Assembly: GCA_017433825.1 (NCBI GenBank) | Contig: JAFRGL010000006.1 | Coordinates: 1 to 64,000 of the forward strand | Source of the DNA: Eubacterium sp. | Lineage (GTDB): Bacteria > Bacillota > Clostridia > Lachnospirales > Lachnospiraceae | DNA length: 64,000 nucleotides | Direction: 5' to 3' | Position numbers and translations under genes: made by a program | Shown here: one piece after another, positions 2,376-23,456 of the stretch | Numbering within the stretch: the stretch's first letter is position 1 | Layout: the number at the start of each line of letters is the position of its first letter | The notes under the pieces: generated by a model | What the model was told of the DNA's origin: nothing | Database searches by the model: none | What the model saw: only the letters and a program-made list of their open reading frames with translations

Positions 2376-2406
2376 TAATCTATCTGTGGTATTAATTTTT
2401 TAGTTG

Positions 2407-2412
2407 TATAAT
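2407..2412 (+). promoter_or_regulatory. putative -10 box for the leader-attenuator transcript
   Basis: TATAAT at 2407-2412 would place the transcription start near 2419, only about 18 bases before the leader ORF start at 2437. No good -35 box is seen 17 bases upstream; TTGACT at 2367 is too far away. The call rests on the perfect -10 and its position just before the leader ORF. Confidence 0.45.
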
Positions 2413-2436
2413 CTAAAGGAAAGCGAGGTATTCATA

Positions 2437-2502
2437 ATGCGTGTTGTAAGAATTGAGATTGTAAGTGAACATAGTATGATGACCTCGGTTTCTGCCATCT
2501 GA
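2437..2502 (+). CDS. 21-codon leader peptide of the GNAT-RsgA gene
   Basis: A small frame ATG 2437 to TGA 2500-2502 encodes 21 residues beginning MRVVRIEIVSEH and ending TSVSAI. GAGGT at 2425-2429 sits 7 bases before the ATG, a good ribosome binding site. The frame is followed 32 bases later by an intrinsic terminator and then by the 527-codon gene. Codons 14-18 (bases 2478-2489) can pair with the 5' arm of the terminator, so the ribosome's position on this ORF could decide whether transcription continues. I do not recognise the peptide sequence. The design matches leader peptides of inducible ribosome-protection and antibiotic-resistance genes, which is an inference here. Confidence 0.65.
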   Translation: MRVVRIEIVSEHSMMTSVSAI

Positions 2503-2534
2503 TTCGATTAGGACAGATATATTTTGATATTCAG

Positions 2535-2570
2535 ACCGCGGCATCTCTTGTTGCGGTTTTCTTTTGCTTT
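2535..2570 (+). terminator. attenuator terminator upstream of GNAT-RsgA gene
   Basis: ACCGCGGCA (2535-2543) pairs over nine positions, two of them G-U, with TGTTGCGGT (2549-2557) around a TCTCT loop. TTTCTTTTGCTTTTT follows. It lies between the leader ORF and the TTG start at 2657, inside the transcript rather than after a full gene, so it should act as an attenuator. Bases 2478-2489 in the leader ORF are complementary to 2535-2545 with ten base pairs, one bulge and one mismatch, giving a competing antiterminator. Confidence 0.75.
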
Positions 2571-2656
2571 TTCGGCAGTTTTCCGTTATGAAAGGGTCTC
2601 CATACTATCAGGGTAATTTCGTATTGATCATTTAAACTATACAAGGAGACTTAAAA

Positions 2657-4240
2657 TTGAATAATATTATTATCAGGCAGGAAACAAAGGAAGACTATTA
2701 TAGCACTGAACTGATGACAATGCGGGCTTTCTGGAACATACACGGACCCGGATGCAATGAGCATCTGCTCGTGAACAAGCTTCGCAGCGCTGATGAATAT
2801 CTGCCGGAACTGAGCCGTGTGGCAGAGCTTGACGGAAAAGTAGTGGGGGCTGTTTTTTATTCCAGGGCCAGGGTGGCAGATGGCGATAAAGAACATGAGG
2901 TATTAACATTCGGGCCGCTTGCGGTGGACCCTTCCTGCTTCAGTATGGGAATAGGCGCGCTTCTTCTGAAAGAAACGATAGCGCTGGCCAAAGGATCCGG
3001 ATATAAAGGAATCGTGATCTGCGGCGAGCCGGAGTATTATCCCAGGCATGGTTTTATGACCTGTGATCACTTTGATATCCATCATCCGTCATTTGGAAAC
3101 TCCGATGCCTTTATGGCACTTCCGCTGAATGACGGCTTTGAAGATATCCATGGATACTTTTACGAAGCGCCTGTCTTTGAGGAGTGCGGGGATGAAAAGG
3201 AGATAGAAGAGTTTACGAAGCGTTTTCCTTATTACAAGCCTTTAAAGCTTTCCTGCCAGTGGCTTCATGTAGAAAAACTGGGAAGAATTTCGGAGGTCAG
3301 CAAAAACAGCTATAAGATCAGGTTCTGGGAGCAGGAGATACCGGCGAAGCTGAAAGGAAGCTTTTATGAAGAAGATTCCGATAGACTTCCGGTCACAGGC
3401 GACTATGTGACATTCATGTATAACAGGCAGGGAGATTCCGTAATCCTCTCCGTCTGTGAGAGGCAGAGCTTTTTGCAAAGGCCCGACCAGGCGAAAACAG
3501 GTGTGATGCAGTATATGGCAGCCAATGTGGATTACCTTTTCATCGTCACGTCACTTAACGAAGACTACAGCTATAACCGTATAGCGAGATACGTGAGCAT
3601 AGCCATTCAGGGCGGAGCAGAGCCTGTTGTAATCCTGACAAAATCCGATCTTTGCACAAATCCCGGAAGATATGTGCGTGAGGTGGAGCAGATATCAGAT
3701 AAAGTGCGTGTCCATGCGGTTTCAGTTCTGTATGACATTGGGCTTGAGGAACTGAAGGAATACATGACACCGGGAACCACCATATGCCTGATGGGGTCAT
3801 CCGGTGCGGGAAAATCAACGTTAATCAATTACATTACCGGTGAAGAGGTCATGAAGACATCCGGTATCAGGGAAGGTGACGACAAGGGAAGACACACAAC
3901 CACATACCGGAAACTCCTCGAACTTTCAAACGGTGTTACGATCATAGATACGCCGGGTATGCGGGAAGTCGGTATGGCGGGTGTTCAGGATGGGATAAAC
4001 GAAACCTTTTCAGACATCGTTGATCTGGAGAGACAGTGTAAATTCAGTAACTGCAGACATGAAACCGAGCCGGGCTGTGCAGTAAGGGCGGCTATCCGAA
4101 GCGGAGAATTATCTGCAAAGAGATATGAGTTGTATAAAAGCCTGGGCAGGGAGAATGAAAACAACCATGCCATGAAAAAGGTAATATCCAAGTGGGCAAA
4201 AGCCTATAAAAAGAATAATAAGAGGAATATGTGGGATTGA
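2657..4240 (+). CDS. GNAT acetyltransferase fused to RsgA-type ribosome GTPase
   Basis: The 527-residue protein joins two modules. Residues 1-175 are a GNAT domain (VDPSCFSMGIGALLL cofactor loop, YYPRHGF). Residues about 200-520 are an RsgA/YjeQ-type circularly permuted GTPase: an OB-like region (205-275), G4 TKSD 328-331, G1 GSSGAGKST 380-388, G2-type GRHTTT 411-416, G3 DTPGMRE 431-437, and a zinc site C461, C466, H468, C474. Canonical RsgA acts in late 30S subunit assembly and has no GNAT domain. The start is TTG 2657 with AAGGAG eight bases upstream. Expression is probably set by the leader ORF and attenuator just upstream. A target on the ribosome is likely from the GTPase half; what is acetylated is unknown. 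Confidence 0.88.
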   Translation: MNNIIIRQETKEDYYSTELMTMRAFWNIHGPGCNEHLLVNKLRSADEYLPELSRVAELDGKVVGAVFYSRARVADGDKEHEVLTFGPLAVDPSCFSMGIGALLLKETIALAKGSGYKGIVICGEPEYYPRHGFMTCDHFDIHHPSFGNSDAFMALPLNDGFEDIHGYFYEAPVFEECGDEKEIEEFTKRFPYYKPLKLSCQWLHVEKLGRISEVSKNSYKIRFWEQEIPAKLKGSFYEEDSDRLPVTGDYVTFMYNRQGDSVILSVCERQSFLQRPDQAKTGVMQYMAANVDYLFIVTSLNEDYSYNRIARYVSIAIQGGAEPVVILTKSDLCTNPGRYVREVEQISDKVRVHAVSVLYDIGLEELKEYMTPGTTICLMGSSGAGKSTLINYITGEEVMKTSGIREGDDKGRHTTTYRKLLELSNGVTIIDTPGMREVGMAGVQDGINETFSDIVDLERQCKFSNCRHETEPGCAVRAAIRSGELSAKRYELYKSLGRENENNHAMKKVISKWAKAYKKNNKRNMWD

Positions 4241-4302: not shown

Positions 4303-5988
4303 ATGATAATAAAACTGGAACCGGTAAATGATAATAATAAGGATGCGGTTCTGGCCCTTTCCGTACGGGAAGATCAGCCTTTCGTTGCAACAAATGAGGT
4401 TTCGCTGCGGCAGGCGGCGGAAACGAATGAAGAGCACCCCGGTGCTGCGCGCCCGTTTGCGATCTATGCGGACGGCCGGCTGGTCGGATTCTGCATGTTT
4501 GCCGTGAATCCGGAGGACGAAGATGAAGACGACAGATACTATCTCTGGCGTTTCATGATCGACAAGGCCGAGCAGGGAAAAGGCTGCGGTCAGGCTGCTC
4601 TGGCAGAGATCATCCGCTATTTCCGAACCCTCGGGGCGGATCGGATACTGCTTTCCACCGAACCTGAAAACGAGCGCGGGCTGCACGTGTATCACAAGGC
4701 TGGATTCCATGAGACCGGGTGTATTGACTGCGGAGAAGCCGTCCTGAGACTGTGGCTGGAGAAAAAAACGAAAAAAGAACGGGACAAGTTCCTTTTCTAC
4801 AATGTCGATGTGAAAGAGCGCCTGCGGATCAGGGAGAAAAAAGGCTACGGCGTGAGCATTGCCATCGCAAGCGGAGATGACCTCAGTACCTACTGCACCG
4901 GGAGCGGCCGCTTCGGGCAGGACTTTCCGGTGAATCCGGATATGCTGTTCCAGGCGGGCTCTGTATCGAAACCCATGTTTGCGCTGACACGTCTGCGGTA
5001 CGCGGACAAGGGGGTTATTGATCTTGACGCGGATATTTCGGGCATTGTGCCGGAATTCGTCAGAAAAGGGCCGGTGACCTTCGCTGCCCTGCTAAGCCAC
5101 ACGGCCGGCTTCAACCTGCACGGCTTCCCCGGATACCGGGCAGATCACGAGCCGTTTACGCTCGAAGACGTGCTGAACGGTAAGGGGATTACGCCGAAGC
5201 TCAGAAAGATTCGCCCGTACGGCAAACAGCATATGTACTCCGGCGGCGGCTTCACGCTGGCTGAACTTGCCTTCATGAGGATCACGGGAGTGACCCTGCG
5301 GGAAGCATTTCAGAAGGAGGTTGCCGGGCCTTTGGGCCTGAAGCGCACCGGCTTTTTCCAGCCGCTTGACGAGGAGCTGGTCGCAAACGCGGCGTTTGGC
5401 GGCAGACTTGCCGAAAAGGAAGACCCCGCCCATGGTTATCATTATTATCCCGAGCATGCAGCCGCGGGCCTTTGGACCACACCGACGGAGCTGGTCAGGA
5501 TAGGCCGTGCCATTTCCAAAAGCTTCAAGGAAGGCGGCCTGCTCAGAAAAGAGACCGCAAGGCGCATGCTGACACCGGTCATGGATGGCTACGGCCTGGG
5601 CATTTATAACCTCCGGGGCGATATCGGCTATCATGACGGATGTAACGAAGGCTTCCTGACGACATGGATGTTCTCCCTGAGGGAAGATTTGTGTGTGGCG
5701 AGCATGTTCAACCGGTCCACTGACGAACTTGACTGGAAACAATCCTATATTGCCATCGAGCTGTTCCAAACTGCGGAGGAGGAGCTGGCGGAGATGCCGG
5801 GCAGGAGGAGCTTAAAAGCCTTGTGCGGCAAATACGAGCATCCCGGGGATGCCGATTTCTGCGTGGATGAGGTTTTTCTTGAGGACGGAAAACTGTTCGC
5901 GAAGTTCATCGACGAGGAACAAGGTTCCTTTACCGGTCAGCTCTATCCTATCGAAAAAAGACTTTCGGACGCAAGGGCGGCTTCTTGA
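4303..5988 (+). CDS. GNAT acetyltransferase fused to a beta-lactamase-like serine hydrolase; frameshifted tail
   Basis: Residues 1-155 are a GNAT domain with EQGKGCGQAAL (about 90-100). Residues about 165-530 are a class C beta-lactamase/DD-peptidase-fold hydrolase with SVSK 220-223 (catalytic Ser and Lys), LLSHTAGF, and Y312-S-G where Tyr-x-Asn is usual; HDG near the C-terminus fills the KTG position. There is no signal peptide, unusual for a cell-wall enzyme, so it may act on a cytoplasmic ester or amide. The frame ends at 5988, but a -1 shift at the A6 run at 5955-5960 would continue as TFGRKGGFLKLTF and stop at 6045-6047, which looks like the natural end. Confidence 0.85.
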   Translation: MIIKLEPVNDNNKDAVLALSVREDQPFVATNEVSLRQAAETNEEHPGAARPFAIYADGRLVGFCMFAVNPEDEDEDDRYYLWRFMIDKAEQGKGCGQAALAEIIRYFRTLGADRILLSTEPENERGLHVYHKAGFHETGCIDCGEAVLRLWLEKKTKKERDKFLFYNVDVKERLRIREKKGYGVSIAIASGDDLSTYCTGSGRFGQDFPVNPDMLFQAGSVSKPMFALTRLRYADKGVIDLDADISGIVPEFVRKGPVTFAALLSHTAGFNLHGFPGYRADHEPFTLEDVLNGKGITPKLRKIRPYGKQHMYSGGGFTLAELAFMRITGVTLREAFQKEVAGPLGLKRTGFFQPLDEELVANAAFGGRLAEKEDPAHGYHYYPEHAAAGLWTTPTELVRIGRAISKSFKEGGLLRKETARRMLTPVMDGYGLGIYNLRGDIGYHDGCNEGFLTTWMFSLREDLCVASMFNRSTDELDWKQSYIAIELFQTAEEELAEMPGRRSLKALCGKYEHPGDADFCVDEVFLEDGKLFAKFIDEEQGSFTGQLYPIEKRLSDARAAS

Positions 5989-23323: not shown

Positions 23324-23349
23324 CGGCGATTAAATAATAAATAATTAAC

Positions 23350-23434
23350 GCTAGGGGAGCAGATGCTGAGATTGGCCCTTTTCGGGCCGGGACCCTCATG
23401 ACCTGAACCGGATAATGCCGGCGTAGGGAAGCAT
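23350..23434 (+). promoter_or_regulatory. TPP riboswitch (THI element)
   Basis: The sequence holds the conserved parts of the thiamine pyrophosphate aptamer in order: CTAGGGGAGC, GCTGAGAT, a variable GC-rich arm, GGGACCC, GACCTGAACCGGATAATGCC and GGCGTAGGGAAGC. It lies 56 bases before thiT. TPP binding should lower ThiT production. Confidence 0.97.
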
Positions 23435-23456
23435 GAAGAACAATCACTCATCGTCC

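Follow-up and report, generated by a model that had tools for sequence, protein, structure and literature searches.

How does a short open reading frame (ORF) in front of an intrinsic terminator control the gene of a GNAT-RsgA fusion protein? This question is raised by a locus of Eubacterium sp. (Lachnospiraceae; assembly GCA_017433825.1, contig JAFRGL010000006.1), of which positions 1 to 64,000 of the forward strand, referred to as the window, were analyzed. An initial annotation had described the locus as a single attenuator, in which a ribosome finishing the ORF covers a pairing segment and allows termination, while a ribosome stalled early leaves this segment free and allows read-through. 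Our analysis points, with a probability of roughly 80%, to a double attenuator, operated by ribosomes on the leader, in front of an accessory RsgA paralogue. The transcriptional part of the earlier picture is retained, but a translational lock was missed, in which the ORF pairs with 2595-2608 or, alternatively, the ribosome site of the gene pairs with 2596-2601 and for which the strongest evidence lies on the ORF side. The following features of the window are involved:

2367-2395, + strand: predicted promoter by consensus match, consisting of TTGACT (2367-2372), a spacer of 17 bp and TATTAA (2390-2395)
2424-2429, + strand: R1, ribosome site of the leader ORF, which may pair with 2482-2487 (guard helix H1, an anti-antiterminator)
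2437-2502, + strand: leader ORF of 21 codons plus TGA, with frame and stop position kept in relatives
2471-2484, + strand: R2a, ORF segment pairing with R5 (helix H4) and covarying with 2595-2608
2483-2491, + strand: R2b, ORF segment with the core ACCTCGG, pairing with R3 (H2, antiterminator) or with R1 (H1, guard)
2533-2542, + strand: R3, 5' arm of the terminator and target of R2b
2550-2566, + strand: R4, 3' arm of the terminator (2550-2559) and T-rich tail
2595-2608, + strand: R5, GGTCTCCATACTAT, partner of R2a (ON) or of the gene ribosome site (OFF), with covariation in H4
2645-2650, + strand: R6, ribosome site GGAGAC of the fusion gene, pairing with 2596-2601 (H5)
2657-4240, + strand: regulated gene, a GNAT-RsgA fusion of 527 amino acids by its Pfam domain matches, with TTG start

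The five helices are H1 (R1:R2b), H2 (R2b:R3), H3 (R3:R4), H4 (R2a:R5) and H5 (R5:R6). During normal translation of the leader, the ribosome would reach the stop codon and cover R2b, so that the terminator forms, and in RNA which is nevertheless read through, R5 would keep the ribosome site of the gene closed. On a leader without ribosome, R1 would pair with R2b, which also results in the OFF state. A ribosome halted within the first leader codons, through drug-stalled initiation or in very early elongation, would cover R1 and leave R2 free. R2b could then seize R3 before R4 is synthesized and transcription would go on; R2a would then seize R5 and open the ribosome site of the gene. We infer that translation inhibitors are the inducer, i.e., that drugs or translation stress are sensed. 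A protective role, in which the extra RsgA would help ribosomes through such stress, is suggested by analogy with HflXr in Listeria.

The leader ORF is present as initially annotated, with ATG at 2437, the stop codon TGA at 2500-2502 and a ribosome site (GAGG at 2425-2428), and encodes the peptide MRVVRIEIVSEHSMMTSVSAI. For comparison, the best 80 of 181 relatives were used, all from named genomes and most of them from Butyrivibrio or other Lachnospiraceae. A leader was found at 77 of these 80 loci, 70 of them by a motif screen demanding [AG]CCTCGG and GAGG and 7 by a covariance model, whose matches were not chosen by these letters (L116, L117, L118, L110 at ~560 nucleotides (nt) upstream, L059, L062, L096). 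The leaders of L059, L062 and L096 are cut at contig ends, with just the last 48 bases retained in L096. One further locus (L089) begins inside the gene, so that it offers no upstream DNA to judge. A search with the leader DNA across 7 genomes of the genus returned the window copy only (1/7). Cultured isolates with the element include the Butyrivibrio strains LC3010 and INlla21.

The geometry of the ORF is highly conserved. After removal of identical sequences and addition of further loci from a fusion-protein search in a sample of 299 genomes of the family, 73 distinct loci were obtained, all of which have an ORF of 20-24 codons. The stop codon begins exactly 18 nt past the start of ACCTCGG in 70 of them (exceptions L014, L016 and L112), and the ACC codon is in frame in 65/65 loci. 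Aligned leader ORFs differ in length by threes and end with TGA, TAA or TAG. Differences between leader codons are mostly nonsynonymous, counted without a neutral expectation, and codons 8-11 vary across loci at the first and second positions but keep the third. Since the geometry is kept while the codon changes are mostly nonsynonymous, translation of the leader and the position of its stop appear to be selected, but not the peptide. Kept geometry, frame and stop point to a translated short ORF with its own ribosome site 5' of the regulated gene. The consensus of codons 7-11 (window 2455-2469) is GAG ATT GTA ACT GAA, and its kept third positions are not explained by any of the helices defined here. 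On a contig labelled as a metagenome-assembled genome of Myxococcales (L111), the leader peptide is identical to that of L108 and L109 from Lachnospiraceae, possibly due to a binning error.

Pairing was evaluated in an alignment (A1) of 43 of 65 loci; the other 22 were left out for a long linker, near-identity to another locus or distant relationship. They include L107, L108, L109 and L111, for which the R5 scan gave no good R5, and R2a:R5 is therefore somewhat favoured in A1. The invariance of the letters ACCTCGG and GAGG in A1 is partly built in, because the motif screen demanded them; the core ACCTCGG is, however, also present in covariance-model matches, which were not picked by motif. In the ON set (H4 and H2), 92.3% of the cells are paired and 7 pairs show two-sided change. 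Only 0-2 of 500 shuffles reach the five measures, and slid versions of the set are 20-53% paired. The OFF set (H1, H3 and H5) is paired in 93.7% of the cells. Events were counted by Fitch reconstruction on the protein tree. For H4 (12 pairs), this gave 16 two-sided compensatory and 6 two-sided breaking events; two-sided compensation occurred 7 times in five pairs of H3 and once in five pairs of H2. At the edge of H2, the pair 2490:2534 occurs in distant relatives as T-G, T-A, A-T and G-T, besides several non-pairs. No two-sided compensatory change was found on the tree for the six pairs of H5, though 93.4% of the cells are paired in the 43 sequences. H1 is paired in 95.3% of the cells with almost no variation, GAGG being invariant in the 43 aligned sequences. 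R2a pairs with its own R5 at -14.1 kcal/mol, compared to a mean of -11.5 kcal/mol with the R5 of other loci. None of 10000 permutations is as good as the pairing with the own partner, and this holds among the 20 distinct R2a as well.

Covariation is strong for R2a:R5, moderate for the terminator, weak for R2b:R3 and absent for R5:gene site and R1:R2b. The locus has mutually exclusive folds with covariation support, as is characteristic of an attenuator. By comparison of the sequences, the ORF geometry and the R2a:R5 helix can be regarded as established. The pairings of R5 with the gene ribosome site and of R1 with R2b appear conserved, but too invariant to serve as independent proof. The homologue comparison proposed with the initial annotation supports its leader ORF, whose geometry is conserved; the best covariation, however, lies in R2a:R5, a pairing outside that annotation. 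The terminator 3' of the leader ORF was also described correctly. It extends over 2533-2566, with an 11-pair stem (2533-2559), a loop of 5 and a T-rich tail. The ten-pair complementarity reported between 2478-2489 and 2535-2545 exists, but contains a T-C mismatch (2485:2539) and a bulged A2482, and its conserved part is the pairing of 2483-2491 with 2533-2541. As had been claimed, this ORF segment can rival the 3' arm of the terminator in binding the 5' arm, but it loses at equilibrium, covaries weakly in the fusion clade and could act only kinetically.

To represent the ribosome, a mask of 32-33 nt was placed on the 43 homologues before folding, with ribosomal unwinding and bulk ignored. In transcripts ending 3 nt past R3, the antiterminator forms in 36/43 sequences with a ribosome at the start codon (mean probability P 0.79; window 0.85), in 2/43 without ribosome (P 0.10) and in 0/43 with a ribosome at the stop codon (P 0.00). 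When the ribosome is placed on successive codons, mean P(H2) is 0.79, 0.79, 0.64 and 0.33 at codons 1-4, 0.12-0.17 at codons 5-8 and zero from codon 13. P(H4) amounts to 0.74 for a ribosome on codon 1, 0.50 on codon 4 and 0.02 on codon 8. Closure of the gene site by its hairpin has a P of 0.18 in full-length RNA with a ribosome at codon 1, 0.77 with one at the stop codon and 0.67 without ribosome, and climbs from 0.18 to ~0.8 as the ribosome moves along the codons. The ON state is predicted mainly for ribosomes at leader codons 1-3, and the OFF state without ribosome or with a ribosome at the stop codon. A single ON fold would serve both locks; opening of the gene ribosome site is predicted, and opening of the terminator is predicted in truncated transcripts only. 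The direction of control given in the initial annotation, with termination for a ribosome at the stop and read-through for one held early, is borne out by these constrained folds. Dependence on a blocked leader is seen for the antiterminator in truncated transcripts, but not in full-length RNA, where the terminator wins. A free segment is predicted to give read-through with an early-held ribosome, but not on an untranslated leader, where OFF is predicted because the leader ribosome site is tied up with 2482-2487 in the guard helix.

The regulated gene encodes a GNAT-RsgA fusion, as was recognized before, with an N-terminal GNAT domain (PF00583, E 2.5e-6) and a C-terminal RsgA GTPase domain (PF03193, E 3.2e-46). 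With 157.8 bits against a cut-off of 30 for PF03193, it is a member of the RsgA GTPase domain family. It also scores above the cut-off of TIGR00157 (145.2; cut-off 100) but stays under that of NF008931 (174.4; cut-off 360), the nearest equivalog model for RsgA. By eye, GSSGAGKST, DTPG and TKSD are found in the protein, which we take to be GTPase motifs, and a C/H cluster is visible. Solved RsgA structures align to residues 207-502 of the fusion at most. A second RsgA above the Pfam cut-off is encoded in the same genome on contig C6 (locus L165), where the covariance model gives no leader match. The fusion is considered an accessory paralogue because of this other, leaderless RsgA. The TTG start (window 2657-2659) is found in 35/43 aligned loci; either selection or common descent has maintained this weak start codon. 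Of 299 evenly drawn genomes of the family, 47 match the fusion protein at E <=1e-60, mostly in the RsgA part only and a few in the GNAT part only. Matches restricted, or nearly so, to the GNAT half are present in G051, G060, G105, G166, G176 and G186, with ~43-55% identity. By these matches, relatives of the GNAT domain of the fusion appear to occur without its RsgA part.

Several results weigh against the double attenuator. In the window, the number of terminator-like sites is 3, compared to a mean of 3.0 in shuffled sequences, and the fold of 2419-2660 has a z-score of -1.33, with 22/200 shuffles equally or more stable. The case rests on the relatives, because the window alone exceeds chance in neither terminator count nor fold energy. 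Among the relatives, the 517 bases of upstream sequence of L102 contain no leader, none is seen at L115, where the match starts at residue 14, and the RsgA relatives L023, L025, L030 and L031 (52-70% identity) have no leader match. Even with a ribosome at the start codon the antiterminator is transient, since it is found in 32/43 sequences at the end of R3 (window 0.11), in 21/43 halfway through R4 (window 0.93) and in 0/43 at the end of R4. Once the leader RNA is complete, the terminator prevails (mean P 0.96-1.00), whether or not a ribosome is present and wherever it sits. Antitermination would therefore have to be decided kinetically, while R4 is made. The ON range of the window is narrow, comprising codons 1 and 2 and partly 3, and a ribosome at codons 9-11 gives a mean P(H2) of 0.29-0.38, which the model does not need. 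In A1, the OFF set is at shuffle level on 2 of 5 measures (218/500 and 392/500), because it hardly varies. H2 is nearly invariant within the fusion clade, so that its covariation support is weak there. H1 varies too little for covariation, and it would pair around a ribosome. H4 itself has 15 one-sided breaks on the tree, and the own R5 ranks first for just 11 of the 20 distinct R2a, with one ranking 18th.

These results have to be weighed together with other explanations. The switch could be mainly translational, with a leaky terminator, control by R2a taking R5 from the gene ribosome site and only a minor part for R2b:R3. This would agree with R2a:R5 having by far the best covariation, and with the minimum-energy fold of the window with a start-codon ribosome, in which the terminator is still formed inside the R2a:R5 helix. 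However, the CGGTT of R2b lies outside R2a:R5 and is yet kept together with R3, with some edge compensation in distant relatives, and R2b:R3 forms in the 36/43 folds 3 nt past R3. In addition, the leaders of exporter genes described below keep an R2b-like core and the terminator, although 8 of 10 have no R5-like pairing beyond shuffles. We consider a mainly translational switch unlikely. RsgA or the 30S supply might also act back on the gene, with the leader reading mature 30S and the extra RsgA answering a maturation defect in the absence of any drug; such autoregulation appears quite unlikely. Control is predicted to hinge on the initiating ribosome, and the leader serves RsgA, fused or not, at 32/64 loci and at one remnant, a share which is enriched by model construction. 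On the other hand, exporters, GNATs, a peptidase and other genes have related leaders as well, and the predicted state in the absence of initiation is OFF.

Amino-acid or nascent-peptide attenuation, by which a particular codon or a stalling peptide would be sensed, could be indicated by codons 7-11 (E-I-V-T-E), which are alike in many loci. The leader contains no run of a single amino acid, though, and changes in codons 8-11 are mostly nonsynonymous with third positions kept, which is the reverse of a peptide constraint as judged without formal test. Moreover, the predicted ON positions are mainly codons 1-3, ahead of codons 7-11. Peptide-specific stalling was dropped because the codon pattern is opposite to a peptide constraint, and sensing of this type is very unlikely overall. 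A chance arrangement of a short ORF beside an unrelated terminator would fit the terminator count and fold energy of the window alone, both within the range of shuffles, but is already refuted by the leader at 77/80 related loci (best 80 of 181) and by covariation; we attach practically no weight to it. Of all these explanations, the double attenuator is preferred.

This kind of switch is known for antibiotic-resistance genes. In accordance with the initial annotation, which knew of no such case for RsgA fusions, none of the publications listed by searches of the open-access literature (subscription papers and preprints being outside) describes RsgA or GNAT-RsgA fusions under leader control, and its use on RsgA is apparently new. 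Precedents are, however, closer than had been thought, namely the double design in the vmlR model and, with hflXr, a ribosome-GTPase paralogue under leader-ORF attenuation. In the model for the vmlR leader of B. subtilis, which controls an ABC-F antibiotic resistance factor, an upstream ORF (uORF) within an anti-antiterminator hairpin is combined with an antiterminator, an intrinsic terminator and a hairpin that partly blocks the ribosome site of the gene. Both locks open in the induced fold, and ribosomes that initiate on the uORF are stalled by lincomycin and retapamulin (PMC9226507). Compared by design and not by sequence, the two-lock layout is the same here. In contrast to the 20-24 codons of the present leader, the uORF of vmlR has 3 codons (MIN); R2 is located here inside the ORF, where the terminating ribosome covers it, gene and clade are different, and NusG pausing belongs to the vmlR system (PMC9226507).

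In Listeria, hflXr (lmo0762) encodes a ribosome-acting GTPase paralogue under the control of the 14-codon leader attenuator rli80 (PMC6310831). Both systems share an accessory ribosome-GTPase paralogue, transcription attenuation by a leader ORF and a further GTPase copy at a separate genomic site; they differ in the GTPase (HflX there, RsgA acting on 30S here) and in an RLR motif, which the present leader does not have (PMC6310831). The ABC exporter BmrCD of B. subtilis (ABC, ATP-binding cassette) is induced by lincomycin, erythromycin and chloramphenicol via the leader ORF bmrB (PMC4191407). Here, too, a ribosome-controlled leader ORF is combined with a terminator, and weaker relatives of the present leader precede ABC exporters; compared by layout, bmrB differs by its 53 codons and by a terminator within the coding region (PMC4191407). 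A further difference from hflXr is the translational lock of the present system. In Erm-type translational attenuators, peptide-specific stalling on a leader ORF determines whether the ribosome site of the gene is accessible. The peptide of the present leader is not conserved, in contrast, and a terminator is added. RsgA, a 30S maturation factor, might take its place next to HflXr and the Tet(M)-type protection GTPases as a response induced by drugs that target the ribosome. For the extra RsgA of bacteria related to those common in the rumen, the proposed mechanism offers a testable on-switch.

The leader belongs to a wider family. A covariance model (named R1 like, but distinct from, the segment above), which covers leader to terminator and was built on 46 sequences from fusion leaders, matches 38/348 genomes of the family and 27/295 of the order. 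Seven weak matches (E 0.0024-0.0075) lie outside the locus set. The 64 loci were classified by the gene within 1.5 kb downstream, with Pfam run on ten representatives. They comprise 17 GNAT-RsgA fusions, 16 stand-alone RsgA, 10 ABC exporters, 3 GNATs, 2 M3 peptidases, 1 NFACT, 1 hydrolase, 1 ABC_ATPase and 13 with none of these, proportions which are biased because the starting model was built on fusion leaders. The leader core is present at 15/64 loci with stand-alone RsgA; the sixteenth, L176, is a remnant without core. Eleven of the 13 unclassified loci have no leader core, while L139 and L144 have it. Model matches without CCTC core were rejected as likely chance matches (L148, L162, L163, L164, L178, L181, L183, L184, L185, L187, L188). 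A second model from 30 diverse members matches 44/348 genomes of the family and 11/341 of the class and adds 23 loci, with 15 ABC exporters, 2 ABC_ATPase, 1 RsgA and 5 with none of these genes. Two of these 15 exporters are just 29% identical to the reference, and one has another gene in between.

Exporter leaders (L140-L143, L145, L177, L180, L182, L186, L189, L193, L201-L204, L206-L208, L210, L211 and others) consist of an ORF and a GC-rich terminator, mostly with the CCTC core (TCTC in L208, CCCC in L214). Judged by these elements, the exporter leaders seem to be part of a larger attenuator family. The exporters themselves are presumably BmrC-like. R5-like pairing was compared in 27 loci with 200 dinucleotide shuffles each. 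For GNAT-type, peptidase and hydrolase leaders, 0-14 shuffles are as strong (window 4); for stand-alone RsgA the numbers are 0, 4, 17, 17, 21, 26 and 26, for ABC exporters 9 (L189), 14 (L141) and 37-160 (other eight), for L138 136 and for L144 67. R5-like pairing seems to precede genes of the GNAT type, peptidases and hydrolases, but mostly not exporters. Among 17 stand-alone RsgA genes examined by eye, 5 retain the first GNAT residues (L116, L117, L118, L121, L137), as if the GNAT domain had been cut out in frame.

Accessory RsgA paralogues, often GNAT-fused, may represent an inducible class for ribosome rescue or drug tolerance at the 30S subunit, switched by start-trapped ribosomes via an unnamed clostridial attenuator family. 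By additionally controlling exporters, GNATs and others, this family would form a shared, RNA-wired translation-stress regulon; we offer the whole view only tentatively. The leader family in front of exporters and acetyltransferases, which has no Rfam match at the window, could reveal drug-response genes by RNA instead of protein. Other genes behind such leaders are those of L173 and L175 (M3 peptidase), L174 (hydrolase) and L179, L205 and L213 (ABC_ATPase, PF09818). At L138 and L190, the leader is located 556 nt 5' of an NFACT/RqcH-like gene (PF05833), which is a candidate target only. RqcH is a ribosome quality-control factor. In L139, a GNAT-type leader after position 1501 (- strand) is followed by a transposon-like gene in place of GNAT, presumably TnpB/OrfB-like by eye.

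Transcription of the present locus is predicted to start at ~2402. A promoter pair scoring at least 9.5 is found within the 60 bases before GAGG in 51/65 loci, the window included, compared to 7/65 mononucleotide-shuffled sequences. The leader element has no credible Rfam match; at permissive thresholds, the region 2370-2700 reaches 17.8 of 43 and 16.9 of 50 bits (gathering). The sole Rfam match of the window at the gathering threshold is a thiamine pyrophosphate (TPP) riboswitch at 23343-23446 (+ strand; 70.7 bits). Neighbouring genes on the + strand, which resemble accessory cassettes, are located at the following positions:

246-1172, + strand: double-GNAT protein
1216-1830, + strand: small hydrolase-like protein (weak match)
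1887-2375, + strand: CDP-alcohol phosphatidyltransferase-family protein
4303-5988, + strand: fusion of a GNAT and a beta-lactamase-family domain

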